Origin: Akkermansia sp.
GTDB taxonomy: Bacteria > Verrucomicrobiota > Verrucomicrobiia > Verrucomicrobiales > Akkermansiaceae
Length of the DNA: 45,533 nucleotides
Assembly (NCBI GenBank): GCA_017521405.1
Contig: JAFXCP010000010.1
Location: 1-45,533, forward strand
Reading direction: 5' to 3'
Notes under the pieces: generated by a model
Database searches by the model: none
What the model saw: the letters and a program-made list of their open reading frames with translations, nothing else
Told to the model about the DNA's origin: nothing
Shown here: one piece after another, positions 8,638-39,170 of the stretch
How positions within the stretch are numbered: the stretch's first letter is position 1
How the letters are laid out: each line of letters opens with the position of its first letter
Translations under genes and position numbers: made by a program

Positions 8638-8667
8638 TTGCGGGAGGGGGCGTATCTATGGTAGGAT
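8638..8667 (+). promoter_or_regulatory. Promoter of the cytochrome gene, six bases before its start codon
   Basis: TTGCGG and TAGGAT are separated by 18 bases. Only six G residues lie between the -10 box and GTG 8674, so the transcript should be leaderless or nearly so. Confidence 0.55.
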
Positions 8668-8673
8668 GGGGGG

Positions 8674-10656
8674 GTGAAATGTAGTCATCTTAGCAGTATT
8701 CTGCTTGCTCTGCCCCTGCTTGGGGCGGGGGAGGAATTGCCTTCCGGGTACGAGCAGCATTGGGATGCCAAGGCCACGCCTATTTCCCTGCGGTGCGGGC
8801 GTTGCCATGCCAAGGAGTACCGGGAATGGGCGGGTAGCGACCACGCCTGGGCATGGAGACCCGTGTCTGAAAAGCTCGATGCATCCGCCTTTCAGGGGCA
8901 AGAGGTGGAGGCTCACGGGCATAGACTGCAAATGCTGAGGGATAAGGCGGGAGCGTTCATTATACGGGAAGCGAATACCGGCGAGACTTTCCCGGTACAG
9001 GCGGCGATTGGGCGGCGCCCATTAGTGCAGTACACGATTCCGTGGAAGGATGGGGGCATGCAGGTGCCCAGTGCGGCATGGGATTCCCGGAAGGGTGAGT
9101 GGTTCGATGTGTTCCGGGATGATGCTAGGCAGCAGGCCAACGGGACAGCAGAGCGCTGCAAGGGGGATTGGGGGCATTGGCAAGGACGCGGGATGAATTG
9201 GGATGCCCAGTGTGCATGGTGCCATATGAGTGGTTTCCACAAGAATTATCAAGTGGAGGCAGATCGTTTTCAGGCTACATGGAAGGAGCCCGGTGTTACG
9301 TGTATCCAATGCCACAGAGCAGAGGATACCCCGGCGAAGGATGGCTGCCTAGTGGCACCAGAGCACCGCAAGCCGACCGCCGGGCTGCAGGATGACAACT
9401 GTGCATCCTGCCATGCCCGCCGTGAGGAGCTGACAGATAATTTTTCCATAGGGCAGCGTTTTGATGACCATTTCCGCTTGGAGCTACCGCTGCTGCCGGG
9501 GATTTTTCACCCGAATGGGCAACAACTGGAGGAGGATTACTGCGAGACGAGTTTCCGGCTCAGTCGCATGGGGCGCACCGGAGTAACTTGTTACGATTGC
9601 CATAACCCGCATACGGGCGGGCTTACGGAAAGCATGGAGAATGACCAGCTCTGCCTGCAGTGCCATGCTACGAACAAAGTAGTCAACGGGGTACTGGCAC
9701 CGCAGGTAAAGCGAAGCCGTCTTTGCGGGCCTAATACGCCCAACCGCTGTGTGGATTGCCACATGCCGGAGGATACTTACATGGGGCGCGACCCCCGCCG
9801 GGACCATTCCCTGCATTGGCCGGATCCTCTACTGAGCAAGGAAATAGGCTTGCCCAACACTTGCCAAAATTGCCACAAGGATAAGGATCACGATTGGGCG
9901 ATTGCATACTTGGCTAAGCGCTATGGTGCCAAAATGGAAAAATACCGTCCCCGCTTCCGCGCCGTGCATGCCGCCATGAATGGTAAGGGAAATGTGCCGC
10001 AACTGCTGGAGGTTTACGACAAAGAGGAAATCCCCGCATGGCGAGCCACCATATTAGGGCTGCTGGCTCGTATGCCCATTACGCCGGAGGTGCAATTGCG
10101 GGCCATTGCTGCCACACAGGATGCGGATGCACTCGTGCGGGCTGCAGCAGTGCAATTGCTCGGTGGGGAGCATGCCCAAAAAGCACTGGGTGATGATACG
10201 CGTGTGGTACGCCAAGCCGCCGGGTGGAGCCTTTTCCCGAACTTACCGACCGGCCACCCTGTGCTTGGAGAGATGGAAGCCACCGCCCGCCTCCAGGGAG
10301 ACCAGCCCGGCGGAGCCATGCAGCTGGCTATGCTGGCCTCTGCCAAGGGGGATTCTGCCGAGGCTGAGCTACAATACAAACGAGCTATTGAACGGGACCC
10401 GGCTACCCCCGTAGCGCGTATGGATTACGCTGTATTCTTAGCCCGGCAAAATCGTCTGCTGGAAGCCCTCCGGCAGATGCTCGCCTGCACTGCCGCGCAC
10501 CCGGAAAACGCAGAGGCACAGTACCGCCTCGCGCTCATTCTGCTGGAAACCGGCTACCACCCCGCTGCCCAAAAAGCAGCAGAAAAAGCACTCCGGCTGG
10601 AGCCAAATCACCAAGGCGCACAGCAAATACTACAATACCTCCGCCGAAGGCGTTAA
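8674..10656 (+). CDS. Secreted octaheme cytochrome c with C-terminal TPR repeats
   Basis: This 660-residue protein starts at GTG 8674; the signal peptide (LSSILLALPLLGAGE) begins right after it, and no better start lies upstream. It contains eight CXXCH haem-binding motifs: CGRCH (41-45), CAWCH, CIQCH, CASCH, CYDCH, CLQCH, CVDCH and CQNCH. These occupy residues 41 to about 405, a cytochrome c554-like multihaem layout. The part after about residue 420 looks HEAT-like, and residues 565-655 form TPR repeats ending in PNHQGAQQIL. It should act outside the inner membrane as an electron carrier or reductase, with the TPRs as a docking surface. The substrate cannot be read from the sequence. A membrane protein and a histidine kinase follow within 30 and 15 bases, suggesting one operon. 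Confidence 0.88.
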   Translation: MKCSHLSSILLALPLLGAGEELPSGYEQHWDAKATPISLRCGRCHAKEYREWAGSDHAWAWRPVSEKLDASAFQGQEVEAHGHRLQMLRDKAGAFIIREANTGETFPVQAAIGRRPLVQYTIPWKDGGMQVPSAAWDSRKGEWFDVFRDDARQQANGTAERCKGDWGHWQGRGMNWDAQCAWCHMSGFHKNYQVEADRFQATWKEPGVTCIQCHRAEDTPAKDGCLVAPEHRKPTAGLQDDNCASCHARREELTDNFSIGQRFDDHFRLELPLLPGIFHPNGQQLEEDYCETSFRLSRMGRTGVTCYDCHNPHTGGLTESMENDQLCLQCHATNKVVNGVLAPQVKRSRLCGPNTPNRCVDCHMPEDTYMGRDPRRDHSLHWPDPLLSKEIGLPNTCQNCHKDKDHDWAIAYLAKRYGAKMEKYRPRFRAVHAAMNGKGNVPQLLEVYDKEEIPAWRATILGLLARMPITPEVQLRAIAATQDADALVRAAAVQLLGGEHAQKALGDDTRVVRQAAGWSLFPNLPTGHPVLGEMEATARLQGDQPGGAMQLAMLASAKGDSAEAELQYKRAIERDPATPVARMDYAVFLARQNRLLEALRQMLACTAAHPENAEAQYRLALILLETGYHPAAQKAAEKALRLEPNHQGAQQILQYLRRRR

Positions 10657-10686
10657 CTCCCCCCCTTCCCCATTTATCTCAAACGT

Positions 10687-11472
10687 ATGGATACTTCCGA
10701 TATTCTTCTGACAGTACTGGGCGTCCTCATTGCCGCCATCATCATTTTTGCCATCTTTAAGGGGATTATTAAAATGATTCTGCTGGCTGCCACCGTCATC
10801 AGTGCCGTGGCGGCGTGGATATTTCTGCAAAAAAATGGTTTTACCTATCTGGCATTCATCACGGACACCCCTGCTCCATGGATGGTGCAAGCATTGGCAT
10901 GGGGGGCAGCCATCCTCATTTTTGTCGTATTTTTCCATGGCATGGTATGGTTTTCCCAGCTATTCTCCTTCCGCAAGAGGGTGGGGGCGTGGGGACTGCT
11001 CACCACAGTACTCATGAGTGCCCTCATGCTCTGGACGGCCACGGTGGGCATATGCTACTATGGAGATGTTTGCCGCATCCGCTATTACCACGAACTGGCA
11101 GAATCCCAGCAAAAAGGCACCCCGCAACCTGCTATGCCTTGGTTCACGAAGGTGAAGGAAACCCTACGAAAATCCCCATACACCGGCTGGCTCGCCTCCA
11201 TCGACCCCATGGAAAACCCGGCCCAGACCAATCTGGCCTGTTTAGTCGCCTTCGGATGTACACTGGATGAGCCCACCTTCACCCAATTTTACAACACCCA
11301 CCTCACCACACGCGGCATTCCCCAGCCCACGAGGCTCCTCGCTCTTTTCCGGGATCCCGGCTTACGCACCCTCGTTAAAGAAGGTCACTTCGTTACCCTG
11401 CTGGAAAACGAACACCTTAACACTGTACTCCGTTATAAAGATACGGAGGAAAAAATGCGTTACATCCTCTAG
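10687..11472 (+). CDS. Integral membrane protein, CvpA-like in layout
   Basis: A 261-residue protein with about four hydrophobic segments: residues 6-25, 28-48, 63-87 and 99-120. The rest is a soluble C-terminal domain of about 135 residues. The N-terminal half, with Gly after the first membrane helix and two tight hairpins, resembles CvpA-family proteins, but I see no decisive motif. It lies between the cytochrome gene (30 bases upstream) and the histidine kinase gene (15 bases downstream). Function unknown; it could be the membrane partner of either neighbour. Confidence 0.6.
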   Translation: MDTSDILLTVLGVLIAAIIIFAIFKGIIKMILLAATVISAVAAWIFLQKNGFTYLAFITDTPAPWMVQALAWGAAILIFVVFFHGMVWFSQLFSFRKRVGAWGLLTTVLMSALMLWTATVGICYYGDVCRIRYYHELAESQQKGTPQPAMPWFTKVKETLRKSPYTGWLASIDPMENPAQTNLACLVAFGCTLDEPTFTQFYNTHLTTRGIPQPTRLLALFRDPGLRTLVKEGHFVTLLENEHLNTVLRYKDTEEKMRYIL

Positions 11473-11487
11473 CCCTGCACCACCGCC

Positions 11488-12687: not shown

Positions 12688-12797
12688 GGCTCCCGCCCGT
12701 GTCCGCCGCCATCCCCCGCGCGGAAAGGAATGGGATGCCGCAACCGCAAAAATGCAGAAACGCAGGGAAAATTTACCATTTGCCAGAGTCTCCCAAT

Positions 12798-12843
12798 ATG
12801 CAGGCTATAACAAACGATTGAAAAATTGCGTAATGGCCTGCAT
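12798..12843. repeat. Inverted repeat upstream of the pgk promoter
   Basis: ATGCAGGC (12798-12805) and its exact complement GCCTGCAT (12836-12843) are 30 bases apart and end six bases before the -35 box. This could be an operator or a long hairpin at the end of the preceding transcript; no T-tract follows. Confidence 0.35.
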
Positions 12844-12849
12844 TTAGCC

Positions 12850-14146: not shown

Positions 14147-14175
14147 GATTTCATCGCCATTGAGGCGAAATCAAC

Positions 14176-14244: not shown

Positions 14245-16140
14245 TCAAGGCTGCAAGTGAAAATCCACCCGGAGGATGGCGGTGTTTTCATGCACGCTGT
14301 ATGCGCCCTGCACATCCTTGAGTGTCCCTTTCAGAGTACGCCAAAAGGCAGCGTATTGAGCGTTCTCCTGTGCGGTAGGCTCAGAGGCTTGCATGAAGCT
14401 CTCCGCCAGAAGCAGCGGATTCACACGAAACACGATTCCCGGGATGGCGGGTGCCGGCGATGGCTGCACAAGGCGGGCATTAAATGCCGCATCCGAACCC
14501 ACCGCCACCGCAGTATCCGCCACTGTGACAAGAGGAGCCCCCACACCTTCTCCAAGGGTGTATACAGAGATGCCATCCGGACCGGAGGTCTTGCCATGGA
14601 TTTTCATTTCCACACGCTGGCACAGCTCCTCGAAAGACGCCTCAAAGGCGGCTTTATCCGCCACAGGGAATACCAACGCTTCCGGGATGGACTCGCCATG
14701 CCGAGCCCAGACCAAGGACGCGCTTTTACCTATGGTGCCGTACATGTGATTCAATGCCGATAAAACACCCTTTACCTTGCCCCATTCCGCGCGGCAAGAT
14801 GCGGCATCCTCGGGCGTTTTCCTCTGTGCGGCGACACCTTCGACCACGGCATCAAATGGATCAAGCAGTTCTTTCAGCGTGGGTAAGTTATCATTAGACA
14901 TCGTCGGCACGCCCATGTAGAACATAGAATCCGATGCAGCGAAATAAGACCAGCAAGGCAGCGGAGCCGCCTCCATCCGTAAACCGAGAGCATCTGTTTC
15001 ACTCAGGAGCTGCACGGTATCCCCCTTACGCAGCACGAAGCACCATTCCGGCTGCTCTACGGGCGGCAGCATTTTTCCCAGCATTTCCTGCAAGCGGGTG
15101 ATGGCCTCCGCTGCCTGAAGCAGCGGTTCCGCCGGGGCTGCCTCCTCTGCGGAGCTGCGGAAGGTTCCCTTCATGTATTCCGCCAAAATCCGGCAACATT
15201 CCAGAAATGAATGGCGCTGTATTCCCATGAGGGCTGCAGAACTACGAGCCGCCACATACACGCGTTTCTCTGCATAGGCGTCCAAACGCGCGACCACGGG
15301 AGATGCGAGCACGGAAGCAGACGCATCCACCGGGATGGAAAGCTCCTCCGGATGACTGCATAAAGCCACCACCAACTTGGTACCCACCGCTTTTACCAGA
15401 AAATACACCCGCGCATCCTGAAGGTTTTTCCGCAGGCGGGCTTCCTCTTCCGGGGGAAGTTCCAAATCCCCCAGAGAAAGGCGGTTGGCATGCAGTACAA
15501 ACCCGCGCCAAGAATCCTTCAATACTAATTCAAGAGGCGATGCCGGCTCCAAGGGCACCATAAATGGGAAGCCGGAAAGCTGGTGCATTAACAACTCCGA
15601 ACCGGCTTTCCCACTAAGCACCAAATACACGGGTGCCAAATGAAAGTTTTCCGTGCTTTCCAGCATTTTTTTCAAAATCTCCTGATTGAGCTTTCTTTGC
15701 TGCCCAACCATTTTACGCTGCACCACAGGTGAGGCCTGCGCCGCCCACGCATTTTGCAAGGAAGCCACAGCCTCAGCCCCGCGAATGCAAGAACCCAGCA
15801 TACTTAAACGCTGCAAATCCTCCGTAGCACCGGGGGAAGTCCCCATTGCAACGGAATCGAAAAGACCGGCGTAAGTCAACATCTCCCCTGCACCTCCGGC
15901 CTTTACCAGTAGAGGGAGCAACCAATCCTCCACATGGGACAAGACAAAAAAAGAATCCGTATTCTCCGGCAAGGCTGCCAGTGCGGAATAAGCTGCAGCG
16001 CGCCGAGCCGGGGACTGTCCCTCCGTAGCCTGAGCGGGTGCGGCTATAAGCGCCTGCACCCCGGCGGGTACTTCCTGCTGAGCCATACTGGGCACGGATA
16101 ATAACGCTGCGCCAAGAATCGTAAGAAAGCCTTTCTTCAT
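14245..16140 (-). CDS. Large secreted protein of unknown function
   Basis: This 631-residue protein begins with a clear signal peptide (KKGFLTILGAALLSVPSMAQ, cleavage near residue 20) and has no later membrane segment. The mature part is mixed alpha/beta with several hydrophobic stretches. I recognise no domain, catalytic motif or repeat; it has no PEP-CTERM tail or lipobox. It probably works in the periplasm or outside the cell. It stands alone, convergent with pgk and divergent from gcvT, with its own near-leaderless promoter. Confidence 0.75.
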   Translation of the reverse strand: MKKGFLTILGAALLSVPSMAQQEVPAGVQALIAAPAQATEGQSPARRAAAYSALAALPENTDSFFVLSHVEDWLLPLLVKAGGAGEMLTYAGLFDSVAMGTSPGATEDLQRLSMLGSCIRGAEAVASLQNAWAAQASPVVQRKMVGQQRKLNQEILKKMLESTENFHLAPVYLVLSGKAGSELLMHQLSGFPFMVPLEPASPLELVLKDSWRGFVLHANRLSLGDLELPPEEEARLRKNLQDARVYFLVKAVGTKLVVALCSHPEELSIPVDASASVLASPVVARLDAYAEKRVYVAARSSAALMGIQRHSFLECCRILAEYMKGTFRSSAEEAAPAEPLLQAAEAITRLQEMLGKMLPPVEQPEWCFVLRKGDTVQLLSETDALGLRMEAAPLPCWSYFAASDSMFYMGVPTMSNDNLPTLKELLDPFDAVVEGVAAQRKTPEDAASCRAEWGKVKGVLSALNHMYGTIGKSASLVWARHGESIPEALVFPVADKAAFEASFEELCQRVEMKIHGKTSGPDGISVYTLGEGVGAPLVTVADTAVAVGSDAAFNARLVQPSPAPAIPGIVFRVNPLLLAESFMQASEPTAQENAQYAAFWRTLKGTLKDVQGAYSVHENTAILRVDFHLQP

Positions 16141-16149
16141 ACGCTATGT

Positions 16150-16179
16150 ATTCTATTCTTTTTGCATGTTAAAAGGCAA
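16150..16179 (-). promoter_or_regulatory. Promoter of the 631-residue secreted protein gene
   Basis: On the minus strand TTGCCT and TAGAAT are separated by 18 bases; nine bases separate the -10 box from ATG 16140, so the leader would be only a few bases. Confidence 0.5.
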
Positions 16180-16430: not shown

Positions 16431-16459
16431 TTGACGCGCGAGAGAAAAGGGAGTAAAAT
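16431..16459 (+). promoter_or_regulatory. Promoter of the gcvT-gcvH(-gcvP) operon, leaderless type
   Basis: TTGACG and TAAAAT are separated by exactly 17 bases. Only eight bases lie between the -10 box and ATG 16468, so transcription should start at or within two bases of the start codon. Confidence 0.75.
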
Positions 16460-16467
16460 GCCGCCGC

Positions 16468-17550
16468 ATGAATGCCGAATCTATCAAATGTACGCCACTG
16501 TGCGATAAGCATGTGGCTCTTGGAGCCAAGATGGTACCCTTTGCCGGGTGGAACATGCCCGTTCAATACACGGGCATCATCGATGAGCACAACACAGTTC
16601 GCACAGCCTGCGGCGTGTTCGATATTTCCCACATGGGGCAGTTTCTGGTAAACGGAGCCGGTTCCACGGAGTGGCTCAATTCTATGTTTACCAACAACCT
16701 TAACAAGTTGGTAGACGGCATGGGGCAGTACTCCATGATGCTGAATGAGAAAGGCGGCGTGATTGATGACCTGATTATCTACCGCCTCGGGGAGGATGAT
16801 TATTTCGTGGTGGTGAATGCCTCCATGATTGATGAGGATTACGCTTGGCTCTCCGCGCATAAACCGGAGGGCATCAATTTGGTGAACAAGAGTGCGGATT
16901 ATGTAGGTTTGGCTGTTCAGGGTCCCGCATGTGAGGATGTGTTTGCCAAGATTTGCCCCGGTGTGGAGTTGCCGGTGCGCAATGGTATTCTGATGTTTAA
17001 TGCCGATGGTGATGATGTGGTGGTTTGCCGCACGGGTTACACCGGCGAAAACGGTTACGAGTTTTTCTGCCCTGCCGCCAAGGGTGTGCAGTGGTTCGAG
17101 AAGGTAATGGAAAGTGGTGCAAAGCCCTGCGGGCTCGGCGCTCGCGATAGCCTGCGTCTGGAAATGTGCTATTCTCTGAATGGCTCCGATCTTTCCCCGG
17201 AAAAAACCCCGCTGGAAGCCGGTCTTTCCTGGTGCTGCGATTTGAGCAAGGACTTCATCGGCGTGGAGGTTCTGCGCCAGCAGAAGGCAGAGGGGCGCCC
17301 CTCTGCCTTGGTGGCGATTGAGTACACGGGCAAGGGAGCACCGCCCCGCCATGGTTATGCGGTACAACTGCCGGATGGCACGCCCTTGGGTGAGCTGTGC
17401 AGCGGTGTGCTCTCTCCCAGCTTAGGCAAGGGTATTGGCATGGCCTATGTGCCCACGGCTCTTGGCAAAGTCGGCACGGAGGTCAACATCGTTGTCCGCA
17501 ACAAGGCAATTCCCGCCATTATCGTTAAAAAACCCTTCCTTAAGAAGTAA
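16468..17550 (+). CDS. gcvT: Glycine cleavage system T protein (aminomethyltransferase)
   Basis: The 360-residue product transfers the methylene group from the aminomethyl-lipoyl arm of GcvH to tetrahydrofolate and releases ammonia. Visible signatures are the N-terminal PFAGWNMPVQY, the segment GVFDISHMG, the catalytic Asp in GGVIDDLIIY, and the folate-site segment TGYTGENGYE. The C-terminal barrel (GELCSGVLSPSLGKGIGMAY) is complete. It is the first gene of the gcv operon; gcvH follows after 36 bases. Confidence 0.97.
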   Translation: MNAESIKCTPLCDKHVALGAKMVPFAGWNMPVQYTGIIDEHNTVRTACGVFDISHMGQFLVNGAGSTEWLNSMFTNNLNKLVDGMGQYSMMLNEKGGVIDDLIIYRLGEDDYFVVVNASMIDEDYAWLSAHKPEGINLVNKSADYVGLAVQGPACEDVFAKICPGVELPVRNGILMFNADGDDVVVCRTGYTGENGYEFFCPAAKGVQWFEKVMESGAKPCGLGARDSLRLEMCYSLNGSDLSPEKTPLEAGLSWCCDLSKDFIGVEVLRQQKAEGRPSALVAIEYTGKGAPPRHGYAVQLPDGTPLGELCSGVLSPSLGKGIGMAYVPTALGKVGTEVNIVVRNKAIPAIIVKKPFLKK

Positions 17551-20979: not shown

Positions 20980-21008
20980 TTGTTCCACCCGGGGGAAGAT
21001 GCTAGACT
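20980..21008 (+). promoter_or_regulatory. Promoter of the FKBP gene, leaderless type
   Basis: TTGTTC and TAGACT are separated by exactly 17 bases, and only six bases lie between the -10 box and ATG 21015. Confidence 0.65.
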
Positions 21009-21014
21009 GACGCC

Positions 21015-21653
21015 ATGTCCGACAAAGAACAAATGCTTAAAATGATGTCTTACCTCATCGGGTACCGCGTAGGCAGCCAAGTAATGCCCCAAATGCTGCC
21101 CGGGCTTAGCCCGGAGGATGTGGTGGCAGAAATGCTCGGCAAAGGCTTTTCCGATGGGCTCGCCGGGGATATGGATATGAGCCTCATTTCCCCCGAGGTG
21201 GACCGCTACCAACAAGAATTCATCGCTATGCTTCAAGAGCGAGGCAATGCCAAAGCCAAGGCTAACCTGGAGCTTGGACAAAAATACATGGAAGAAAACG
21301 GCAAGCGCCCGGAGGTAACCACCACAGCCAGCGGCCTGCAATACGAAGTGCTCACAGCCGGCGGCAACGAGAAATATAACGAAGCCCTCCACGGCGATGC
21401 TCCCACCGCAGAAGTAATGTACAAAGGCACGCTGATAGATGGCACAGTGTTCGACCAGAGCAAAGCACCGGTCAAGTTCAACATTCGCCAAGTCATTCCC
21501 GGATTTACGGAAGCTCTGAAACTGATGCCTGTGGGAGCCAAATGGCGTGTAACCATTCCTGCCAATCTGGCCTACGGAGCTAATGGTCCCGGCAGTATCG
21601 GACCGAACAGCACTCTCATTTTTGAAATGGAGTTGCTGGGGCTCACCAAATAA
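21015..21653 (+). CDS. FKBP-type peptidyl-prolyl cis-trans isomerase
   Basis: A 212-residue isomerase that catalyses proline cis-trans isomerisation in folding proteins. Residues 1-95 form the helical dimerisation domain of the FklB/Mip type. The FKBP domain follows, with SGLQYEVL near residue 105, VMYKGTLIDGTVFDQS, the segment VIPGFTEALKLMPVGAKW, the LAYGANGPG loop and the final LIFEMELLG. There is no signal peptide, so it works in the cytosol. A 65-residue membrane protein follows 16 bases later. Confidence 0.95.
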   Translation: MSDKEQMLKMMSYLIGYRVGSQVMPQMLPGLSPEDVVAEMLGKGFSDGLAGDMDMSLISPEVDRYQQEFIAMLQERGNAKAKANLELGQKYMEENGKRPEVTTTASGLQYEVLTAGGNEKYNEALHGDAPTAEVMYKGTLIDGTVFDQSKAPVKFNIRQVIPGFTEALKLMPVGAKWRVTIPANLAYGANGPGSIGPNSTLIFEMELLGLTK

Positions 21654-23164: not shown

Positions 23165-24124
23165 TTAGGATTGCCGAGCAGCAGCCTCGCGAGCCTTTGC
23201 AAGAAGAGTTTCCGCTTCGGCTGCAGCCTCGGGATTCACCTTCTTTTGGCGGATTACGCTTTCAAAACAGAAAATGGCCGAGGTATACTCCCGGGAGCGC
23301 TCCAAATAATAACGCCCCACTTCCAATTCCTGCTGCACCAGCAGACGTTTCATATTGGAAGCCTCCGCCAAAGCCTTACCGGCATCCTTATGGTTCGGGA
23401 AACGCAGGGTAAACTCCTCGTACGCCTCGCGGGCATTGCTCAGGTTCACCAAATTTTGGTCTCCTCGCGTATGGCTGCCGGCCCAAAGCTGGGCAACCAT
23501 CAGTTGGGCATCCGGGGCATACTTGCTATCCGGATATTTTTCCACCAGCTTGCTGTACTCCGCACGCGCATCCTCGTAACGTTCCAAATCAACCAGATAT
23601 TTACCCAAAATGGAGGAGGCCGTAGCGGCCATATCATTATACGGAGCCTTGGTCACAATCTCACGCAGCCAACTAATCACCACGCTGGATTCCATCTCCG
23701 TTTCCCAAGCACCCCACAGTACAGGCACCTTCATCTTTCCCTCTGCGGCATCCATAGCCATTGCCAGCTGGCGGTTCAGGGCATCCGTGTACAATGGGCT
23801 CTGAGGGTAACGATCTATCAACTTGCTATACTCTTTAAACGCATCCCGGTATTCTTGGCGGGATTCGTATGCTTTGCCCAAGAGGAAGCGCCCCTCTGCT
23901 GCGTTGGGAGCTAATTCGTGGTTCAACACCAGCTTTTTCAGAGTACGAATCTCCTTGCGAGTACTTCCCTCCGCATGGTAGCCCTTTGCCTCCGCCATGA
24001 GAGTATTAGCTACCGGGTCCACAGCTTTCACGCTCCCTACGCCGGGAGGCCCATCGTACGAATCGCACATGGAAAGCAGCAGTGCCGATGCGGCAAATAA
24101 ACGCAGAAAAACACTCTTTCTCAT
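23165..24124 (-). CDS. bamD: BamD-like TPR protein of outer-membrane assembly
   Basis: A 319-residue protein with several TPR-like repeats: FLLGKAYESRQEYRDAFKEY, then DRYPQSPLYTDAL, EKYPDSKYAPDAQL and a last repeat with EVGRYYLERSREYTSAIFCF. This order, the YPxSxYxxDA motif and the length fit BamD, the essential lipoprotein of the barrel-assembly machine. I chose ATG 24124, where a signal peptide starts. Cys20 follows LLLSM, and Met at the -1 position is atypical for lipid modification, so attachment is less certain than for the lptE product. It has its own near-leaderless promoter. Confidence 0.78.
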   Translation of the reverse strand: MRKSVFLRLFAASALLLSMCDSYDGPPGVGSVKAVDPVANTLMAEAKGYHAEGSTRKEIRTLKKLVLNHELAPNAAEGRFLLGKAYESRQEYRDAFKEYSKLIDRYPQSPLYTDALNRQLAMAMDAAEGKMKVPVLWGAWETEMESSVVISWLREIVTKAPYNDMAATASSILGKYLVDLERYEDARAEYSKLVEKYPDSKYAPDAQLMVAQLWAGSHTRGDQNLVNLSNAREAYEEFTLRFPNHKDAGKALAEASNMKRLLVQQELEVGRYYLERSREYTSAIFCFESVIRQKKVNPEAAAEAETLLAKAREAAARQS

Positions 24125-24133
24125 ACCTCGCCA

Positions 24134-24163
24134 AGCATACCACGTTTCCCCCGGGCATGGCAA
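24134..24163 (-). promoter_or_regulatory. Promoter of the bamD-like gene
   Basis: On the minus strand TTGCCA and TATGCT are separated by 18 bases, with nine bases between the -10 box and ATG 24124. Confidence 0.55.
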
Positions 24164-27628: not shown

Positions 27629-28219
27629 TCAGCATTCCTCCTCCGAGTATAGGATAAGCTCCCCCCGGAAAACAACCAGTACATTCCCCGTCAGAGTCAC
27701 ATCTCCCGAAGAGCCGTCAGGCTGCCGCTCATAAGCCATATGAAGGACCTCCCCACCGGAAAGCTCCAAAGAAATGGGTGACTCTTTCCCCGCATATTCC
27801 GGAAGCGTAGGCGCACCACCAAGCAGTATACTCATACGCTCCCCCAGTGGCGCAGAGCACAATACGGACACACTATCATCCTCATTCAAGCATCCCACCG
27901 GCACCTCTTCCCCTATTTCGAAAGGAATCTGCGGCAGTTCCCCCTCCAACAGCAAATCCGCAAAAGCCGCGAAGCTGAGAGCCGCACTGCCACACACAGG
28001 CTGCTCCTCCCCGGCGGAATTGTACAAACGCATCCGCAAAGCCCCGGCGGCACATGGCTGCTCTGCTACAATCAAACCATCTGCCCCCACACCAAAACGC
28101 CGGTTGCAAATATCGGCAATGTTATCGTGAGTCAGCACCGCGGTCAAAGATAAATCGCGGTTATCCACCATCACGAAATCATTTCCCGCACCCATCATCT
28201 TGTAGAAAGGCAGCATCAT
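27629..28219 (-). CDS. Shortened DapF-like protein lacking the second catalytic region
   Basis: A 196-residue protein, where diaminopimelate epimerases have about 270. The N-terminal domain is clearly DapF: YKMMGAGNDFVMVDNRD, RRFGVGADGLI and RLYNSAGEE, with the first cysteine in VCGSAALSFA where the family has CGNG. After about residue 130 it jumps to the family's last strands (LELSGGEVLHM, DVTLTGNVLVVFRGEL). The middle part, which holds the GNPH segment and the second catalytic cysteine (ACGTGA), is missing. The frame is intact with its own promoter and two genes downstream, so this is not simple decay. Epimerase activity is unlikely; the real function is unknown. A full DapF may be encoded elsewhere. 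Confidence 0.75.
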   Translation of the reverse strand: MMLPFYKMMGAGNDFVMVDNRDLSLTAVLTHDNIADICNRRFGVGADGLIVAEQPCAAGALRMRLYNSAGEEQPVCGSAALSFAAFADLLLEGELPQIPFEIGEEVPVGCLNEDDSVSVLCSAPLGERMSILLGGAPTLPEYAGKESPISLELSGGEVLHMAYERQPDGSSGDVTLTGNVLVVFRGELILYSEEEC

Positions 28220-28228
28220 AGCACCGCC

Positions 28229-28257
28229 ATTCTACCAAAGATACACACACAGGGAAA
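28229..28257 (-). promoter_or_regulatory. Promoter of the DapF-like gene and aroK
   Basis: On the minus strand TTTCCC and TAGAAT are separated by 17 bases, with nine bases between the -10 box and ATG 28219. Confidence 0.55.
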
Positions 28258-28279: not shown

Positions 28280-29188
28280 TCAGAAACGAAAATCCACACC
28301 CGCAGCCACATAGAACCCCGGGTGGAAATGGTGCCCCTCCACACGCTCATTATCGCGAGTAAAACGGCAATAATCCAATGTTGTAGCCACTGTACTCCCC
28401 AGCTCCGCCATCAGAATACGCTTCGTCTGCCCCGGGCAGGAAAAATCGTACTCCAGCGCCACCCCCATCGCGAGCGTGCGGATACGCATCAAACGCTCCC
28501 CGCCCTCCGTATGCACGGACCAATAGCCCCCCATACCGCTTGCAAATACTCCGACACTGAGCCCCTCCACTCCCATCTGCCGCATCACACGCAAATCATA
28601 CCCCACCCAATTCACCACCCAATCCTCCGCCGGCTTCCAATGGACACTAAAAGCAGGAATAATTCCATACTGCATCAAACGCGGGGAAAAAGCCGCCCCC
28701 ACAGAATAGCTCAACGTATCACTCAACTCCACCGCATAATTCACATACCCCCCCACATCGAAACAATGCGGGTCCCACGTCCCATCCCCCGTCACAGTCG
28801 GTGCCAGTGCCATAATCAAACGCCGCCCGCCACGCATCGGATGAATCAACGAAACCGGCAACCGCATCATATGCAACATCTCCTGCGGCACCTCCAATGC
28901 CCCACTCGCCTGCACGTGCGTCAACTTCACATCTAATGCCGCATTCACATACCAATCCCCACACCCCGTCCGCCGGGGATCCGCAAAAGGCACCGTCAGC
29001 TCATACTGCTGCCACCCCATCGAAGAACCGCCATGGCGCTCCCCCATATTACTCACATAGCGCACAAAAAAAGCACTGGGCAGCAGCCCTGTCTCCGGCA
29101 GATGGTATTCCCACTCCGATTCAGCATCCTGAGCCATCACCACTGATAAAGTGCTTACAAGCAAAACGCTGTACTTAAAACCTCTCAT
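28280..29188 (-). CDS. Predicted outer-membrane beta-barrel protein (DUF6268-like)
   Basis: A 302-residue protein with a signal peptide (KYSVLLVSTLSVVMAQ) and alternating hydrophobic strands with frequent Gly, Trp and Tyr, ending in the aromatic DFRF typical of barrel proteins inserted by BamA. The strand and motif order resembles the DUF6268 family. It likely sits in the outer membrane; a transport or structural role is unproved. It is transcribed alone from a near-leaderless promoter, divergent from the gene at 29403. Confidence 0.65.
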   Translation of the reverse strand: MRGFKYSVLLVSTLSVVMAQDAESEWEYHLPETGLLPSAFFVRYVSNMGERHGGSSMGWQQYELTVPFADPRRTGCGDWYVNAALDVKLTHVQASGALEVPQEMLHMMRLPVSLIHPMRGGRRLIMALAPTVTGDGTWDPHCFDVGGYVNYAVELSDTLSYSVGAAFSPRLMQYGIIPAFSVHWKPAEDWVVNWVGYDLRVMRQMGVEGLSVGVFASGMGGYWSVHTEGGERLMRIRTLAMGVALEYDFSCPGQTKRILMAELGSTVATTLDYCRFTRDNERVEGHHFHPGFYVAAGVDFRF

Positions 29189-29197
29189 GTGCCACTC

Positions 29198-29226
29198 ATC
29201 TTACCAAAAAACACTTCCATCGGCAA
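29198..29226 (-). promoter_or_regulatory. Promoter of the beta-barrel gene
   Basis: On the minus strand TTGCCG and TAAGAT are separated by 17 bases; nine bases lie between the -10 box and ATG 29188. Confidence 0.6.
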
Positions 29227-29367: not shown

Positions 29368-29396
29368 TTGTTCCCCAGCGGAGAATACGCTACCAT
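29368..29396 (+). promoter_or_regulatory. Promoter of the putative peptidase gene, leaderless type
   Basis: TTGTTC and TACCAT are separated by exactly 17 bases; six bases lie between the -10 box and ATG 29403. Confidence 0.55.
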
Positions 29397-29402
29397 GTCG
29401 GC

Positions 29403-30227
29403 ATGCTGCGCCATCTGCTTGCCATATTCCTCCTGCTTTTAACCAATCAGGCGGAAGCCGCTCCCCGGCTTATCCCCCGGGTAAGCGGCAGTGTAGCCCC
29501 GCACCCGAGAGCAAACACCACCCCATGGTGGCGCAGCTTACAGCACGCTATCCTCTCCATCCAACGCAGCGGCCCCGGAGGGTACAGCACGGAAGACTAC
29601 GCAAAAGAAGCTCTGGTAAACTCCTTCCAATGGGATGAACAAACTCACCGCCCCCGGTTTAGCCCCGGCACAGCCCGCCCCTCTTTTTGCTCTGCCGCAG
29701 TATATGCCGCTCTGCTCTCTGCCTTGCTCCACTGGGAAGAAAGCAACCAACGCCGCTACATCTCCGCAAAAGCCTGGCAAGCACTCCTGCCACGTCTTGT
29801 CAAGGATGGCATAGGCCCATGGGGCTACGCCAACGCAAACGGCCCGGGATTTGCCCTCCTTGTTCACCAACTCGGAGCCGGCATCAACTTTACCGATTGG
29901 GAAAAAGCCCGCCCCTCCGACATCGCTAAAATCTGGTGGAATGACCACATCGGCGCCGATGAACGGGGACACCTCGTCATCCTAGTACAAGACGATGGTG
30001 CCAACATTCGTTTTTGGTCAGCCAATCAAGCACGCGACAACAGTCCGGGCGGCTACGGCATCCGCAGCGTACCCAAAAGCGCCATTCGCCGCATCCTTTT
30101 CACCCGCATCACCCATCCGGCAGCCTTCAACCGCGCCTCTGCCCTACCGGACAGTCCATGGCTCACCACACTTATGCAGAGCAACACCACATGGGAAGAA
30201 TGCATCCGCCGCTGTGGCATCCGATAA
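29403..30227 (+). CDS. Secreted protein, possible papain-like (NlpC/P60-type) cysteine peptidase
   Basis: A 274-residue protein with a signal peptide (LLAIFLLLLTNQAEA, cleavage near residue 19). A Cys at the start of a helix (PSFCSAAVYAALLSAL, around residue 96) is followed some 90 residues later by a His in a strand (ERGHLVILV) and then a polar position in FWSANQ. That Cys-His-polar order matches NlpC/P60-like amidases. Overall similarity to known families is weak. If the reading is right it would act on cell-wall or host-derived peptides outside the inner membrane. Confidence 0.5.
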   Translation: MLRHLLAIFLLLLTNQAEAAPRLIPRVSGSVAPHPRANTTPWWRSLQHAILSIQRSGPGGYSTEDYAKEALVNSFQWDEQTHRPRFSPGTARPSFCSAAVYAALLSALLHWEESNQRRYISAKAWQALLPRLVKDGIGPWGYANANGPGFALLVHQLGAGINFTDWEKARPSDIAKIWWNDHIGADERGHLVILVQDDGANIRFWSANQARDNSPGGYGIRSVPKSAIRRILFTRITHPAAFNRASALPDSPWLTTLMQSNTTWEECIRRCGIR

Positions 30228-30525: not shown

Positions 30526-30554
30526 TTGCGCGGGGAAAAGGAGCGGGGTATACT
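30526..30554 (+). promoter_or_regulatory. Promoter of folP, leaderless type
   Basis: TTGCGC and TATACT are separated by exactly 17 bases; six bases lie between the -10 box and ATG 30561. Confidence 0.7.
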
Positions 30555-30560
30555 GTGGGT

Positions 30561-31403
30561 ATGGAGATGCGTTGGCAGCTGGCGAGGGAGTGCTGGGAAA
30601 TTCCCCGGGAGGGAGCAATCATGGGGATTCTGAATGTGACACCGGATTCTTTTTCGGATGGTGGGCGATTCTGCACTGTGGAGAAGGCGGTGCAGCATGC
30701 GGAGCTTCTGCTTCGGGAGGGGGCGGATGTCATCGACATCGGTGGGGAAAGCACCCGCCCGGGAGCAAGCCCCGTTTCCACGGAGGATGAGCAAAAAAGG
30801 GTACTGCCCGTTGTACGCGCTTTGCGGGAATGTTACCCGAGAATACGTCTTTCTATCGATACGCGCCATGCAGAAACCGCCCGGGCAGCTCTCTTGGCGG
30901 GAGCGGATATTATTAATGATATTACCGGATTGCAATCGCCGGCCATGCAGCAGGTGTGTGCAGAAATTCCCTGCGGTATTGTCCTGATGCATATGCAGGG
31001 CACACCTGCAACGATGCAGCAGATGCCGCACTATGAGGACGTGGTGGGGGAAATTCGCCGCTTTTTCCGGCAGCAGATGGCCATAGCGGAGGGGCTGGGT
31101 ATTGAAAGGAGGCGCATCTGTCTGGACCCCGGAATTGGTTTTGGCAAGACAACCGAGCACAATGCGGAAATTATCCGTAGGCTGGCGGAGCTTTGTATGG
31201 AGGAGTGCCCGATGATGATGGCTCTTTCCCGCAAGCGGTTCCTGGGTGAACTGTTGGGGGATGCTGCTGCCGGGAAGGCGGATGCACTCCCCACAGTAGT
31301 GATGAGTTTACTGGCTGCCGACAGAGGAGCCGCCATTCACCGGGTCCACGATGTGGCGGCTCTTAAAAAGGCACTGCGGCTGCGCCATGCGCTCACTTGC
31401 TAA
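30561..31403 (+). CDS. folP: Dihydropteroate synthase
   Basis: The 280-residue enzyme joins para-aminobenzoate to the pterin pyrophosphate in folate synthesis and is the target of sulfonamides. Signatures: GILNVTPDSFSDGGRF near residue 22, DIGGESTRPGA, SIDTRHAETA, NDITGL, DPGIGFGKTTEHN and SRKRFLGEL. ATG 30561 is chosen because the promoter at 30526 leaves no room for an upstream start. No other folate gene is adjacent, so it is a single-gene unit. No terminator is seen after it. Confidence 0.97.
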   Translation: MEMRWQLARECWEIPREGAIMGILNVTPDSFSDGGRFCTVEKAVQHAELLLREGADVIDIGGESTRPGASPVSTEDEQKRVLPVVRALRECYPRIRLSIDTRHAETARAALLAGADIINDITGLQSPAMQQVCAEIPCGIVLMHMQGTPATMQQMPHYEDVVGEIRRFFRQQMAIAEGLGIERRRICLDPGIGFGKTTEHNAEIIRRLAELCMEECPMMMALSRKRFLGELLGDAAAGKADALPTVVMSLLAADRGAAIHRVHDVAALKKALRLRHALTC

Positions 31404-31882: not shown

Positions 31883-31911
31883 TTGACAAAGGATAACAAA
31901 GGCGATAGACT
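31883..31911 (+). promoter_or_regulatory. Promoter of the RHH gene with overlapping direct repeat
   Basis: A perfect TTGACA and TAGACT are separated by 17 bases, with seven bases before ATG 31919. Within the promoter, ACAAAGG occurs twice (31886-31892 and 31896-31902), ten bases apart, a one-turn spacing suited to a ribbon-helix-helix repressor. Confidence 0.75.
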
Positions 31912-31918
31912 AAACTTC

Positions 31919-32179
31919 ATGGGAACAAAAGCTATTTCATTTCGAATCCCCCCCGAGCTATTAAAATATGTAGATGCCGCAGCAGCGCACTATAAGCGCA
32001 GCCGCAGCACGGTGCTGATTGCAGCATTGCGCTTGCTTTCCCGGCAGCTTCAGGAACAGGGGGGAGAATATATCCGCGTAGAACTTCCGGCTGATGCATT
32101 GGAGGAAAAGGCCCTCTTCCCCTACCCGGAGAATCGTGGAGGTCGTCCACGCAAAAACAAAGCTGCGGTGAAGGCATAA
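31919..32179 (+). CDS. Ribbon-helix-helix (CopG/Arc-type) DNA-binding protein
   Basis: An 86-residue regulator. The short strand KAISFRIPP is followed by two helices (LLKYVDAAAAHYKRS and RSTVLIAALRLLSRQLQ), the ribbon-helix-helix layout in which the strand reads the DNA major groove. A tail ends in GGRPRKNKAAVKA, basic and probably DNA-contacting. ATG 31919 is chosen because it lies just after a strong promoter; the frame extends upstream only through the promoter. No toxin gene follows: the terminator at 32216 closes the unit, so it is probably a stand-alone, autoregulated repressor. Confidence 0.82.
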   Translation: MGTKAISFRIPPELLKYVDAAAAHYKRSRSTVLIAALRLLSRQLQEQGGEYIRVELPADALEEKALFPYPENRGGRPRKNKAAVKA

Positions 32180-35533: not shown

Positions 35534-35553
35534 TTACGGCGGAAAAATTCCCT

Positions 35554-36273
35554 ATGGAAAAAGGCGAGGAAAAGAGAACCATATTAGTGGCAGAAGATGA
35601 TTCCGCCATCTGTGGTATTCTGGCGGACACACTGCAAAATGCAGGATATGCCGTACTCACCGCTCCGGATGGAAAGGCAGCATTGGAGCTGCTACTCTCC
35701 CGTCCTATCGACCTTGCGCTGCTGGATATCAACATGCCGGAAATCAACGGATTCCGGCTTCTGAAAATCATGGGGAAGGAATGCCCCGGCATCCCCAGCA
35801 TCATCCTGACCGCCCATGGCGAGGAGCAGGAGCGAGTTAAAGGATTGCAACTAGGGGCAGATGATTATGTGGTAAAACCCTTTAGCATTGCGGAGCTGCA
35901 AGCTCGCATCGCCGCAGTATTGAGGCGCAGCCCGGGCAGGCAACTGGCCGTAGCCCAGCAACTTCCCTTTCCCGGCGGCATTCTGGATGGAGAGAACCGC
36001 ACTGCCACCCAATCGGATGGCACCCCCATTCCCCTTACAGAAAAGGAATTTGAACTCTTCCGCTATTTTCTCACCCATCCCGGTCGTATCCTTTCGCAGG
36101 AGGAACTGTTACTACGAGTATGGGGTTCACGCCTCGGCCTCGGAAAAACCCGCACCGTAGCCGTCACACTGGCAAGATTAAAGGAAAAGCTGGGAGCGGA
36201 GACGGCCTCGGCCTTCGAGACCATACGCGGACAAGGATACCGCTGGCAACCCACCCAGAACACGAGCGCATGA
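35554..36273 (+). CDS. OmpR-family response regulator
   Basis: A 239-residue regulator. The receiver domain shows the acidic pair EDD near residue 15, the phospho-acceptor Asp58 in LLDINMP, Thr in LTAHG and Lys108 in VVKPF. A winged-helix DNA-binding domain follows (LTEKEFELFRYFLTHPGRIL, GQGYRW at the end). It starts 20 bases after the fucosidase gene and overlaps the sensor kinase gene by four bases (ATGA). The likely role is control of genes for mucin-sugar use or envelope stress, judged only by position. Confidence 0.95.
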   Translation: MEKGEEKRTILVAEDDSAICGILADTLQNAGYAVLTAPDGKAALELLLSRPIDLALLDINMPEINGFRLLKIMGKECPGIPSIILTAHGEEQERVKGLQLGADDYVVKPFSIAELQARIAAVLRRSPGRQLAVAQQLPFPGGILDGENRTATQSDGTPIPLTEKEFELFRYFLTHPGRILSQEELLLRVWGSRLGLGKTRTVAVTLARLKEKLGAETASAFETIRGQGYRWQPTQNTSA

Positions 36274-37838
36274 AGAAGAAACCCATCATCATCCTGCTCT
36301 GTTTTGCCCTGCTTACCCTCCTTGCAGCCGGATGGCAAATATACGAGGCCGCTAATTTAGAAAGCAGGCTCAAAGCCATAGACCAACAAGCGCAACTCAC
36401 ACGCCTGCTGGAACTTTCCCTTCCTCGTGTACAGGAAAAACTGCAGGCTCTCATCAATGCAGAACGTGCCAAACTGGGGTTTGCCCCCCCCGTGGAAGCA
36501 GCCGTGTACCCCATGCCGGAGGGAGGCATGGCCGATTTTAACTGCGGATTTTTCTTAGTGGGACCCTCCGGTGTGCAAGTTCCTCCCGGGCAGGAGGGGT
36601 TTGCCACGCTCCTGAACAGCGCAACAGCCGTTATCGATACCATTCGCCGTAAGGCCTACAACCCCTCTGCCCCCATTTACGACCCGGCAAAACCCACCGG
36701 CTACGACCCCCGCACCCAGCTTCCCATCTTCGGAGTATACGAGGCCATGGACCCGGATTTTACCCAAGCACTGCAACTCAAGGGCAATCCGGGACCCTTT
36801 TTTGCATGGCACTATGGGGATAACCTCGTGTACATGCGCAGCGTACCCACCACCCACGGTTCTGCGGCAGAGGGCTTCATTATCGATGCAAAAAAACTTT
36901 CCGCGCATCTTCTGCCGTTGGTAGAAACGGCACTCAAAAAGCCGGAAATCACATTTCCTCGCAAAGGGGAAGCAGCCAATCTTTCCCCCCTGCCCCTTGT
37001 ACTCCGCCCCGGTTCGGAAGTGGAACTACCCGACACCGCCACACGAGCAAAAGCCCTTAGCAGCTCCGTCTCCAGCATCTGGTTTGTCTCCCTGCTCACC
37101 ATCAGCATTTTATTCGCCCTGCTAGCCTTCTACACTCGCATCGAACGCCGCCGCGCCGACTTTGTTTCCGCAGTAACCCACGAGCTTCGCACCCCCCTCA
37201 CCAGCTTCAGCCTCATCACGGAAATGCTGCACCAAAACAAAGTGCCGGCCGAAAAAGTGGACGAATACCACGAAACGCTCTACCAAGAAAGCCGCCGCTT
37301 GGGGCATCTTGTGGAAAACGTACTGGCCTTTGCCCGCCTTACCCGTGGCAAAATACGCGGGAGGCAGGATGCCGGGCCCTGCATTCAGATGCTGGCCGGA
37401 GTTATCGACAAGATTACCCCGCGCCTGAAAAGTGCCGGATTCCAAGTAACCTTTGTGCCGGATAAACGCGCCGAGCTGCTCACCCTACATACGGATCTCC
37501 TTTCTCTCGAGCAGATTCTGACAAACCTGGCGGATAACGCCATTAAATATGCAGCCACGGCAGCAGCCCCCGCTATCGCCATTCACGTTGTACGCGGGCA
37601 CGATACACTTTCCCTGCGTTTTACGGACAACGGTCCCGGCATTCCCGCCAATTTACAAAGACAGCTTTTCCGCCCCTTCTCCCGCTCCGCGCAAGCCACC
37701 GCCGGCCGCAAACCGGGCATAGGCTTGGGCCTTGCCCTCTCCCGGGATATTGCCCGCAGCATCGGAGGAGAACTCAGTCTGGAAAAAGCGGACTCCGATG
37801 GCACTACATTCCTCCTGCAACTTCCCCTTACCAAATAA
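36270..37838 (+). CDS. Sensor histidine kinase with periplasmic domain
   Basis: A 522-residue kinase starting at ATG 36270. The first membrane helix is at residues 6-21 and the second at about 269-291, enclosing a periplasmic domain of some 245 residues that I do not recognise. HisKA follows with His304 in THELRTPLTS, then the ATPase domain with the N box NLADNAIKYA, the G1 box TDNGPGIP and the G2 box GIGLGLALS. There is no HAMP or PAS domain between the second helix and HisKA. It pairs with the overlapping response regulator gene. Confidence 0.93.
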   Translation: MKKKPIIILLCFALLTLLAAGWQIYEAANLESRLKAIDQQAQLTRLLELSLPRVQEKLQALINAERAKLGFAPPVEAAVYPMPEGGMADFNCGFFLVGPSGVQVPPGQEGFATLLNSATAVIDTIRRKAYNPSAPIYDPAKPTGYDPRTQLPIFGVYEAMDPDFTQALQLKGNPGPFFAWHYGDNLVYMRSVPTTHGSAAEGFIIDAKKLSAHLLPLVETALKKPEITFPRKGEAANLSPLPLVLRPGSEVELPDTATRAKALSSSVSSIWFVSLLTISILFALLAFYTRIERRRADFVSAVTHELRTPLTSFSLITEMLHQNKVPAEKVDEYHETLYQESRRLGHLVENVLAFARLTRGKIRGRQDAGPCIQMLAGVIDKITPRLKSAGFQVTFVPDKRAELLTLHTDLLSLEQILTNLADNAIKYAATAAAPAIAIHVVRGHDTLSLRFTDNGPGIPANLQRQLFRPFSRSAQATAGRKPGIGLGLALSRDIARSIGGELSLEKADSDGTTFLLQLPLTK

Positions 37839-37866
37839 ATAAAGATTCTAACCCAACAACAATACC

Positions 37867-38802
37867 ATGAAAAAAAACATCATCCTTGCCACAGCGCTCG
37901 CCTCTGCCGGTTTGTATAGCTCCTGCACATGGCAGCCCCTTACCTGCCACCTTACGGAAGCAGCACTCTCCACAGATGCCGCCGTACCCGTAGCGGTCTC
38001 CACCACCGCGGATACCCCCAACTACATTTACCAAAAAGGCACGCAGTTCTACCAGCCCGTCACCGTGCAATACGCCAAGGACAACGGCCGCGACATCATA
38101 CGCCGTTCCGACCACCCCACCCCCAACCTCCAGACTGCGGAAGAAAAAGCAGCACGCTTCATCCTGTCCGATACGGATGAAAAAGCAGTCTACTACTTCC
38201 CGCTGACCCCCGCAGAAGTAAAACAACGTGTGGGCGATAAGGAAGTGGGGAAAATTACCTATATGGGGCGCATCCCCGTACCTGCGGAAAACTTCGAGCA
38301 GGACGAAACCATCAAACAGCTGGAAAGTCTCACCGCAGAACTGCCTGCCAGCTGCCAGGCAGAACTCCCGGGAGATACCGCACCCTGCCGCCTTCTCTCC
38401 CTGAAAACACACGGTGAGGAACCGAGTGCCGGCGCCAAATTGTTGGCCGTTCCCGCCACATTGGTTGATCTCGGCGTGAACGCTACAGCCTTTGCCGTGG
38501 AAGGCACCGCCATGCTCGCATGCAGTCTGGTCTATGTTCCGTACACGATGATTACCGGCCAAGAGCAAGCGCAGCCTGAGCCGGCCGCCACCCCTGCTCC
38601 CACCCCTGCTCCCGAGGCTAAGAGCATTCCCGCCCCGGAAGCAACACAGCCGGCACTGCCCGCAGAACTCCAGAAACCGGCCATCCCTGCCACACCGGCA
38701 CCGGAGCCCGAGCCGGCTCCTGCCCCGGCACCCGCCGGTTCCCCCTTCCTTATGCCGGTGGCACAGCCGCAACCCGGCGTAGAGGTACCCACCAAGCTGT
38801 GA
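37867..38802 (+). CDS. Lipoprotein with Pro/Ala-rich tail, function unknown
   Basis: A 311-residue lipoprotein; the signal peptide ends in LYSSCTWQPL (Cys20). The central part (about residues 40-220) is mixed alpha/beta without a known motif and has four further Cys residues. After about residue 230 comes a Pro/Ala/Glu-rich linker (TPAPTPAPEAKSIPAPEA, EPEPAPAPAPAG) that could span the periplasm. It follows the sensor kinase by 28 bases and may be part of that operon. I cannot name a family. Confidence 0.65.
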   Translation: MKKNIILATALASAGLYSSCTWQPLTCHLTEAALSTDAAVPVAVSTTADTPNYIYQKGTQFYQPVTVQYAKDNGRDIIRRSDHPTPNLQTAEEKAARFILSDTDEKAVYYFPLTPAEVKQRVGDKEVGKITYMGRIPVPAENFEQDETIKQLESLTAELPASCQAELPGDTAPCRLLSLKTHGEEPSAGAKLLAVPATLVDLGVNATAFAVEGTAMLACSLVYVPYTMITGQEQAQPEPAATPAPTPAPEAKSIPAPEATQPALPAELQKPAIPATPAPEPEPAPAPAPAGSPFLMPVAQPQPGVEVPTKL

Positions 38803-38808
38803 ATTTCA

Positions 38809-38837
38809 TTGACAAACGATAGCATCTTTAATAGAAT
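38809..38837 (+). promoter_or_regulatory. Promoter of yggL, near-leaderless type
   Basis: A perfect TTGACA and TAGAAT are separated by exactly 17 bases; nine bases lie between the -10 box and ATG 38847. Confidence 0.75.
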
Positions 38838-38846
38838 CCTGCCACC

Positions 38847-39170
38847 ATGAAGAAACGACTTCGCAAAAAATACCGCGTGGGAGAGTTCCGTGAGCTTTGC
38901 TTCGGATTCACGTTCGACTATAAGGGCGATATTGAATCCACCGAGTGCGAGCAATTCCTGCACGCCTTCGTTGAGGATTGCATCGAAGCCAACGGCTTGG
39001 ACTGCGAGGGCAACATGACCGACGATGGCTGCAACATTACAGCCAAAGCCGTGGACCCCACCCAGACCAGCGAAGCCCAACGCCTCGCCGTAAAGAGCTG
39101 GCTGGAAGCCCGCTCCGACGTGGAGGTGAAGAGCTTTACCGAGCTGCAGGATGCCTGGTACGGCATCTAA
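38847..39170 (+). CDS. yggL: YggL/DUF469 family ribosome-associated protein
   Basis: A 107-residue protein similar to E. coli YggL, a 50S-subunit-associated protein: the basic start KKRLRKKYRVGEFREL, the FTFDYKG strand, the region DFC/EDCIEANGL and the final helix SFTELQDAWYG. No signal peptide; cytosolic. Its role in ribosome assembly or stability is known only in outline for the family. Confidence 0.88.
   Translation: MKKRLRKKYRVGEFRELCFGFTFDYKGDIESTECEQFLHAFVEDCIEANGLDCEGNMTDDGCNITAKAVDPTQTSEAQRLAVKSWLEARSDVEVKSFTELQDAWYGI

Follow-up and report, generated by a model that had tools for sequence, protein, structure and literature searches.

In the 45,533-nucleotide stretch of Akkermansia sp. 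DNA analysed here (the window; contig 36 of a 1.985 Mb assembly), as at many other genes of this species that are not internal to operons, the promoter appears to abut the coding sequence, with a predicted mRNA 5' end at the start codon or about 3 nucleotides (nt) before it. We put the probability of this reading at slightly more than nine in ten. The housekeeping (sigma70-type) polymerase would bind a -35 box (TTGAC or TTGC) together with a -10 box (TAnnnT) and would start about 7-8 bases past the latter, which is where RNA polymerase usually starts. Where 6-7 bases separate the end of the -10 box from the start codon (hereafter the distance), the first transcribed base would be the A of ATG and the mRNA would be leaderless. 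A distance of 9-10 would leave a leader of about 3 nt, and near-leaderless is the right word for such genes because of this expected mRNA start. Messages with leaders this short would have no room for a Shine-Dalgarno site, and ribosomes would presumably recognise the 5'-proximal AUG directly, a mechanism that has been proposed for leaderless mRNAs of other organisms. Where transcription starts at these genes, how long their leaders are and how ribosomes enter are given here as predictions from promoter sequence. A preliminary description of the window had already proposed widespread leaderless or near-leaderless transcription, and this proposal is supported by the genome-wide promoter geometry and its enrichment, by retention of the boxes at the orthologs tested, by the absence of a Shine-Dalgarno peak before non-internal genes and by 5' ends mapped in a sister species.

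Promoter boxes close to start codons

The full arrangement, a TTGnnn box, a spacer of 16-18 bases, a TAnnnT box and 6-9 bases to the start codon, is present at 10 of 41 gene starts in the window (Table 1). Dinucleotide shuffles (1000) gave a mean of 0.12 starts with this arrangement and a maximum of 2, and the same rule applied in five bins farther upstream of the 41 starts matched 0, 0, 0, 1 and 0 times. The list of 41 starts was compiled by hand from gene-finder starts and most-upstream-ATG starts, the latter used for the genes at 16140, 24124, 29188 and 30561, for which the gene finder chose a later codon; the gene at 31919 was absent from the gene-finder calls and was added because the preliminary description had named it. 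An eleventh gene, at 28219, has its -10 box at the right distance and only TTTCCC, at a spacer of 17, in place of the -35 box. The preliminary description counted ten genes although its own list holds eleven, and the distances that it listed proved exact for all eleven when read back from the sequence. Its -35 boxes were confirmed as TTGnnn at a spacer of 17-18 in ten genes and not at 28219, and the 18-base spacer that it singled out at 24124 is real, but is neither the sole case on the minus strand nor the sole case overall, being found also at 8674 and 16140.

The same geometry is seen well beyond the window. In the window and 40 further stretches of the genome (763 kb), a simple dicodon gene finder called 562 genes with 535 usable starts; 241 of these were classed as operon-internal, having an upstream gene on the same strand within 50 bases, and 294 as non-internal. 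TAnnnT lies 6-11 bases upstream of 92 of the 294 non-internal genes, and seven other equally wide bins hold 18-31 each. At distances 0-5 the counts are 6, 4, 3, 3, 3 and 2, and at distances 6-11 they pile up to 24, 11, 9, 27, 10 and 17, over a background of 4.6, with part of the counts at 11 and 14 being shadows of TAnnnTAnnnT. The excess amounts to about 65 genes, or 22% of the non-internal genes and 12% of all 535 starts, which makes the earlier word "widespread" a fair one. Operon-internal genes showed no clear peak over the same distances (3, 3, 6, 4, 2 and 3; background 2.2). Upstream of 100 TAnnnT sites of this genome (distance 5-11), TTG was found at a spacer of 17 in 43, of 18 in 11 and of 16 in 6, and at the remaining spacers from 12 to 23 in 0-5 each. 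In a 392 kb sample, 51 of 158 genes had the box, compared with a mean of 12.7 and a maximum of 26 in 200 shuffles.

The base that precedes the start codon is informative as well. Of 69 promoter clusters at distances 6-7, 65 have a pyrimidine at position -1 (C in 54, T in 11), in keeping with transcription that begins on the A of ATG at a pyrimidine-purine step, and the figure for far promoters is 69 of 93. Because uncorrected starts gave a pyrimidine at -1 in 93% of distance-9 genes, a start on the A of ATG was considered for these too and then dropped; the corrected count of pyrimidines at -1 for distances 9-10 is 53 of 64 vs the same far promoters, with T more frequent than C.

A second Akkermansia species (G004; stretches L146-L165, 400 kb) has TAnnnT at 6-11 bases in 38 of 168 genes, with 3-18 in the other bins. 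In other families of the order the peaks were weak or missing, with 18 of 217 (other bins 6-18), 5 of 55 (0-4) and 14 of 107 (4-8), and the comparison with E. coli K-12 comprised just 18 or 23 non-internal genes, too few for use.

Table 1. Promoters close to start codons in the window. Distance is the number of bases between the -10 box and the start codon; leaders are predictions.
Gene	Coordinates	Strand	-35 box	-10 box	Spacer	Distance	Predicted leader
8674 gene (multihaem cytochrome/tetratricopeptide repeat; Pfam)	8638..8674	+	TTGCGG 8638-8643	TAGGAT 8662-8667	18	6 (GTG 8674)	0 nt
16140 gene	16140..16179	-	TTGCCT 16174-16179	TAGAAT 16150-16155	18	9 (ATG)	
gcvT	16431..16468	+	TTGACG 16431-16436	TAAAAT 16454-16459	17	8 (ATG)	
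FKBP-type isomerase	20980..21015	+	TTGTTC 20980-20985	TAGACT 21003-21008	17	6 (ATG)	0 nt
24124 gene (tetratricopeptide repeat/YfiO-like)	24124..24163	-	TTGCCA 24158-24163	TATGCT 24134-24139	18	9 (ATG)	
28219 gene (dapF-like)	28219..28257	-	TTTCCC 28252-28257 (weak)	TAGAAT 28229-28234	17	9 (ATG)	
29188 gene	29188..29226	-	TTGCCG 29221-29226	TAAGAT 29198-29203	17	9 (ATG)	
29403 gene	29368..29403	+	TTGTTC 29368-29373	TACCAT 29391-29396	17	6 (ATG)	
folP	30526..30561	+	TTGCGC 30526-30531	TATACT 30549-30554	17	6 (ATG 30561)	
31919 gene (86 amino acids; "RHH" in the preliminary description)	31883..31919	+	TTGACA 31883-31888	TAGACT 31906-31911	17	7 (ATG)	
yggL	38809..38847	+	TTGACA 38809-38814	TAGAAT 38832-38837	17	9 (ATG)	about 3 nt (ACC)

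Retention at orthologs and the Shine-Dalgarno signal

Orthologous upstream regions were compared for yggL, the 24124 gene, valS, lepA, gcvT, the FKBP gene, the dapF-like gene, folP and pgk, counting rows with TAnnnT 6-11 bases before the start and with the window's own copy as one row each. The box is kept in 30 of 30 loci for yggL (at distance 9 in 28), for the 24124 gene (at distance 9 in 25) and for valS, and in 28 of 29 rows for lepA, for which one of the 30 loci had no usable row. For gcvT it is kept in 66 of 73 loci (GcvT identity at least 66%; some are duplicates of one species), and for the FKBP gene in 24 of 30, at distance 6 in 18, at 7 in 5 and at 8 in 1, with four of the six misses being loci below 55% identity. 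Across the genus the boxes stay while the spacers vary; gcvT keeps its TTGAC and its -10 box as the spacer and the bases before the start change, and its distance shifts from 6 to 11. The control was pgk, which has TAGAAT 8 bases before its ATG in the window and which the preliminary description had nevertheless set apart from the near-start genes. We agree with that judgement because the orthologs do not keep this box, with TAnnnT at 6-11 bases in just 3 of 28 rows, the window's own included (two rows were dropped at contig ends).

The closest named records by GcvT are Akkermansia sp. from the guts of ruminants and other animals, at 91% identity and down, and records of A. muciniphila isolates stand at 67-68% identity to the GcvT of the window. 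At more distant gcvT loci (46-64% identity), TTGACA is often retained and the -10 box is weaker by eye; at loci L083-L105 (59-64% GcvT identity, some of the records named A. muciniphila), TTGACA often lies about 30 bases before a GTG start and the -10 box is, again by eye, closer to CAGnnT than to TAnnnT.

No Shine-Dalgarno tetramer peak was seen before the non-internal genes of the window's own genome, nor before those of G004. Among operon-internal genes the tetramers rise slightly in the own genome (9, 6 and 9 at distances 7-9) and form a clear peak in G004 (4, 6, 10, 5 and 4 at distances 6-10; n=114); in G004 the modes of initiation would be split by operon position. Where promoters lie near the start, the Shine-Dalgarno signal is faint or missing, yet it is retained in the genus. 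The available part of one report places A. muciniphila among the organisms that have kept CCUCC but seldom rely on Shine-Dalgarno pairing (PMC10783764), and a pattern ending in CCTCC was present in 3 of 21 genomes of the genus, each represented by one to three contigs, and not found in the window's own genome.

Several observations weigh against the leaderless and near-leaderless reading. TAnnnT is missing at 6-11 bases from 202 of the 294 non-internal genes, and all gene starts are predictions, made by the simple dicodon gene finder or by taking the most upstream ATG. Five of the eleven window genes (8674, 16140, 29188, 29403 and 31919) lie outside the ortholog comparison, and two that lie inside it are only partly conserved: the dapF-like gene has the box in just 17 of 30 loci, a count that includes the window's own row and duplicates, and folP has it in just 12 of 30. 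Chance probably accounts for some of these 12, and we take the folP arrangement as lineage-specific. In addition, Shine-Dalgarno use is still present in the genus at operon-internal genes, and the 3' end of 16S rRNA was searched for in the window's own genome and not found.

Predicted start codons also leave room for promoters that are real and true starts that lie farther downstream, in which case the leaders would be normal and would contain hidden ribosome sites, and the gene finder did pick a later codon for four of the eleven genes. We consider this very improbable, since the protein alignments of orthologs extend back as far as the predicted starts, with the nearest start codon at offset 0 for yggL, lepA and valS and for most rows of the 24124 gene and gcvT, several N-termini resemble signal peptides from the first codon (by eye), and start sites of A. 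muciniphila were mapped onto annotated starts in the accessible part of a published survey (PMC4782308). The offset is 3 in a number of FKBP rows, and the rule takes the start nearest the aligned end, which makes the offsets supportive and not a proof. That the TAnnnT boxes merely reflect A+T-rich intergenic DNA, as such a loose motif might, is refuted by the sharp edge between distance 5 (2 genes) and distance 6 (24 genes), the coupled TTG at spacer 17, the dinucleotide shuffles and orthologs that conserve the boxes despite changing spacers.

A possible pair of distance modes

The distances suggest two modes, at 6-7 and at 9-10 with a trough at 8, and this is possibly the new part of the present results. 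One explanation would be that a single polymerase geometry gives two discrete classes, with leaders of 0 and about 3 nt, and that leaders of 1-2 nt are selected against; we hold it tentatively, as an idea more doubtful than probable. It is speculation that the ribosome perhaps accepts an empty or a full E-site codon before the AUG and not a partial one. Stated for the genus, the favoured leader lengths in Akkermansia may be 0 nt and one codon (about 3 nt), with 1-2 nt disfavoured, and initiation on a one-codon leader may be a mode distinct from leaderless initiation, in a genus that keeps the anti-Shine-Dalgarno and uses it little outside operons; this broader statement is likewise possible and, as we judge it, rather unlikely. 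If true, a 0/3-nt rule would be relevant to the way in which ribosomes handle very short leaders.

The first analysis was biased against distances 7 and 10, because most-upstream-ATG starts hide them when the -10 box reads TAnnATG and so contains an in-frame ATG. After removal of this start-codon bias the modes persist but broaden. With corrected starts, the own genome gives 21, 12, 5, 24 and 16 at distances 6-10 (Poisson P 0.0003 for the trough at 8), and 261 pooled clusters give 41.6, 23.6, 16.6, 38.6 and 18.7; in 98% of bootstraps the value at 8 is lower than the mean of either flanking pair, and in more than 99% it is lower than that at 9, though in only 88% lower than that at 7. For G004 alone the counts of 8, 4, 3, 6 and 4 leave the trough without significance (P 0.20). 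The unweighted loci of the gcvT neighbourhood (32, 17, 23, 29 and 12 at distances 6-10) have their low point among distances 6-9 at 7 and not at 8, and model-chosen starts (392 kb, 283 genes) show a weak second mode, with 16, 9, 5, 9, 10 and 14 at distances 6-11. A model-based histogram of leader lengths was not used, its weights not being fitted ones.

The bases around the start speak on both sides as well. Position -1 differs between the modes, with C54/T11 at distances 6-7 vs C22/T31 at 9-10. In valS the distance switches from 9 to 10 among orthologs, yet by eye every one of the 30 rows has a G at -3, and this fixed G despite the shifting box fits a 3-nt leader; counted from the -10 box, position 7 is a purine in 11 of 11 valS rows at distance 9 and in 0 of 18 at distance 10, in 28 of 28 distance-9 rows of yggL and in 22 of 25 of the 24124 gene. 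For lepA, however, a leader of 2 nt is the better fit (position 7 is a purine in 0 of 21), and distances 9-10 show no excess of purines at -3 (46 of 64) over far promoters (65 of 93). The class is kept across the genus by the FKBP gene (6-7) and by yggL and the 24124 gene (9), whereas lepA shifts, as does gcvT over the whole range given above.

Deinococcus deserti, by comparison, has one mode, with 12, 3, 3, 4 and 3 at distances 6-10 (plasmids, ATG starts; a small sample) at a threshold of 8, which was chosen because too few sites were left at 10. At the same threshold the own genome gives 22, 12, 7, 25 and 17 and G004 gives 10, 5, 5, 10 and 9. Taken together, the two-mode pattern is suggestive and not proven.

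A -10 box 9 bases before the start was also noticed at lepA and at five aminoacyl-tRNA synthetase genes, serS, valS, glnS, metG and lysS (at L137 527, L145 13352, L137 14111, L130 15300, L135 9697 and L122 16869). These genes were named by eye from their N-terminal sequence, and a 9-base class shared by translation genes is a hint only. Among the matches listed in a literature search, no title dealt with 3-nt leaders in Akkermansia, and the accessible parts of two papers (PMC4633059, PMC9031893) hold nothing bearing on 3-nt leaders.

Local annotation and known systems

Among the products of the genes in Table 1, that of folP matches Pterin_bind and that of yggL matches YggL_50S_bp (Pfam), and the N-termini of the 29403 and 29188 products resemble signal peptides. 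A Pfam search returned no family for the 29403, 16140 and 29188 products. The 31919 product has only a sub-threshold match to the aCcr1 family (17.5 bits vs a cut-off of 60). The dapF-like gene (27629-28219, minus strand) codes for only 196 amino acids, which match the N-terminal part of DapF (TIGR00652, below its cut-off). Many of its relatives are open frames of about 280-300 amino acids, in which the C-terminal part often gives a second match of its own, and in four genomes (G005, G011, G027 and G047) a short copy occurs alongside a long one; the gene looks like an internally shortened paralog. Elsewhere in the window, the block at 337-8000 holds a large serine recombinase (5079-6395), a helicase-like protein, a DUF2800 protein and two DUF2924 proteins and adjoins a tRNA-Val gene (8464-8536), and it looks like an integrated mobile element. 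The S4/pseudouridine synthase gene that starts at 41544 has TATTTT 6 bases upstream, with no TTG -35 box, and ends in about 8.6 copies of a 42-base repeat (42531-42893) that encode a charged tail.

Akkermansia is a widely studied gut symbiont, and the present analysis supplies start-site predictions for it gene by gene. Leaderless and near-leaderless starts are indicated as a conserved property of the genus, beyond the one strain in which they were mapped, and both expression constructs and start-codon annotation in Akkermansia should allow for promoters this close to the start.

Leaderless transcription has already been measured in the genus, in A. muciniphila, and what we describe is another instance of a known phenomenon. 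According to the available part of a Cappable-seq study of mouse cecum, 10% of 886 high-confidence start sites of A. muciniphila lie at annotated gene starts, compared with 0.4% for E. coli, and mapped sites have -35 and -10 boxes upstream (PMC4782308). This 10% is of the same order as the 12% or so of genes found here, with the reservation that the denominators differ, being sites in one case and genes in the other. That study concerns another species, and the part available counts sites at the start, without discussing leaders of 1-5 nt or naming the genes (PMC4782308). The signature by which a survey of TA-led genes recognised leaderless genes, a TANNNT some 12 bp ahead of where translation starts, is shared as well; that survey was computational and covered 953 bacterial genomes, and "Akkermansia" and "Verrucomicrobi" are absent from its main text (PMC3160421). 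In the genome studied here, TANNNT stands about 10-12 bases upstream more often than in shuffles, with a -35 box at a spacer of 16-18.

A further parallel is found in D. deserti, a species known for leaderless mRNAs, in which, as in Akkermansia, a set of genes has the -10 box 6 bases ahead of the start codon. The two differ in that the one mode of D. deserti lies at 6 and its genes taken together give a strong Shine-Dalgarno peak, whereas in the Akkermansia samples the modes lie at 6 and 9 and the non-internal genes lack such a peak.

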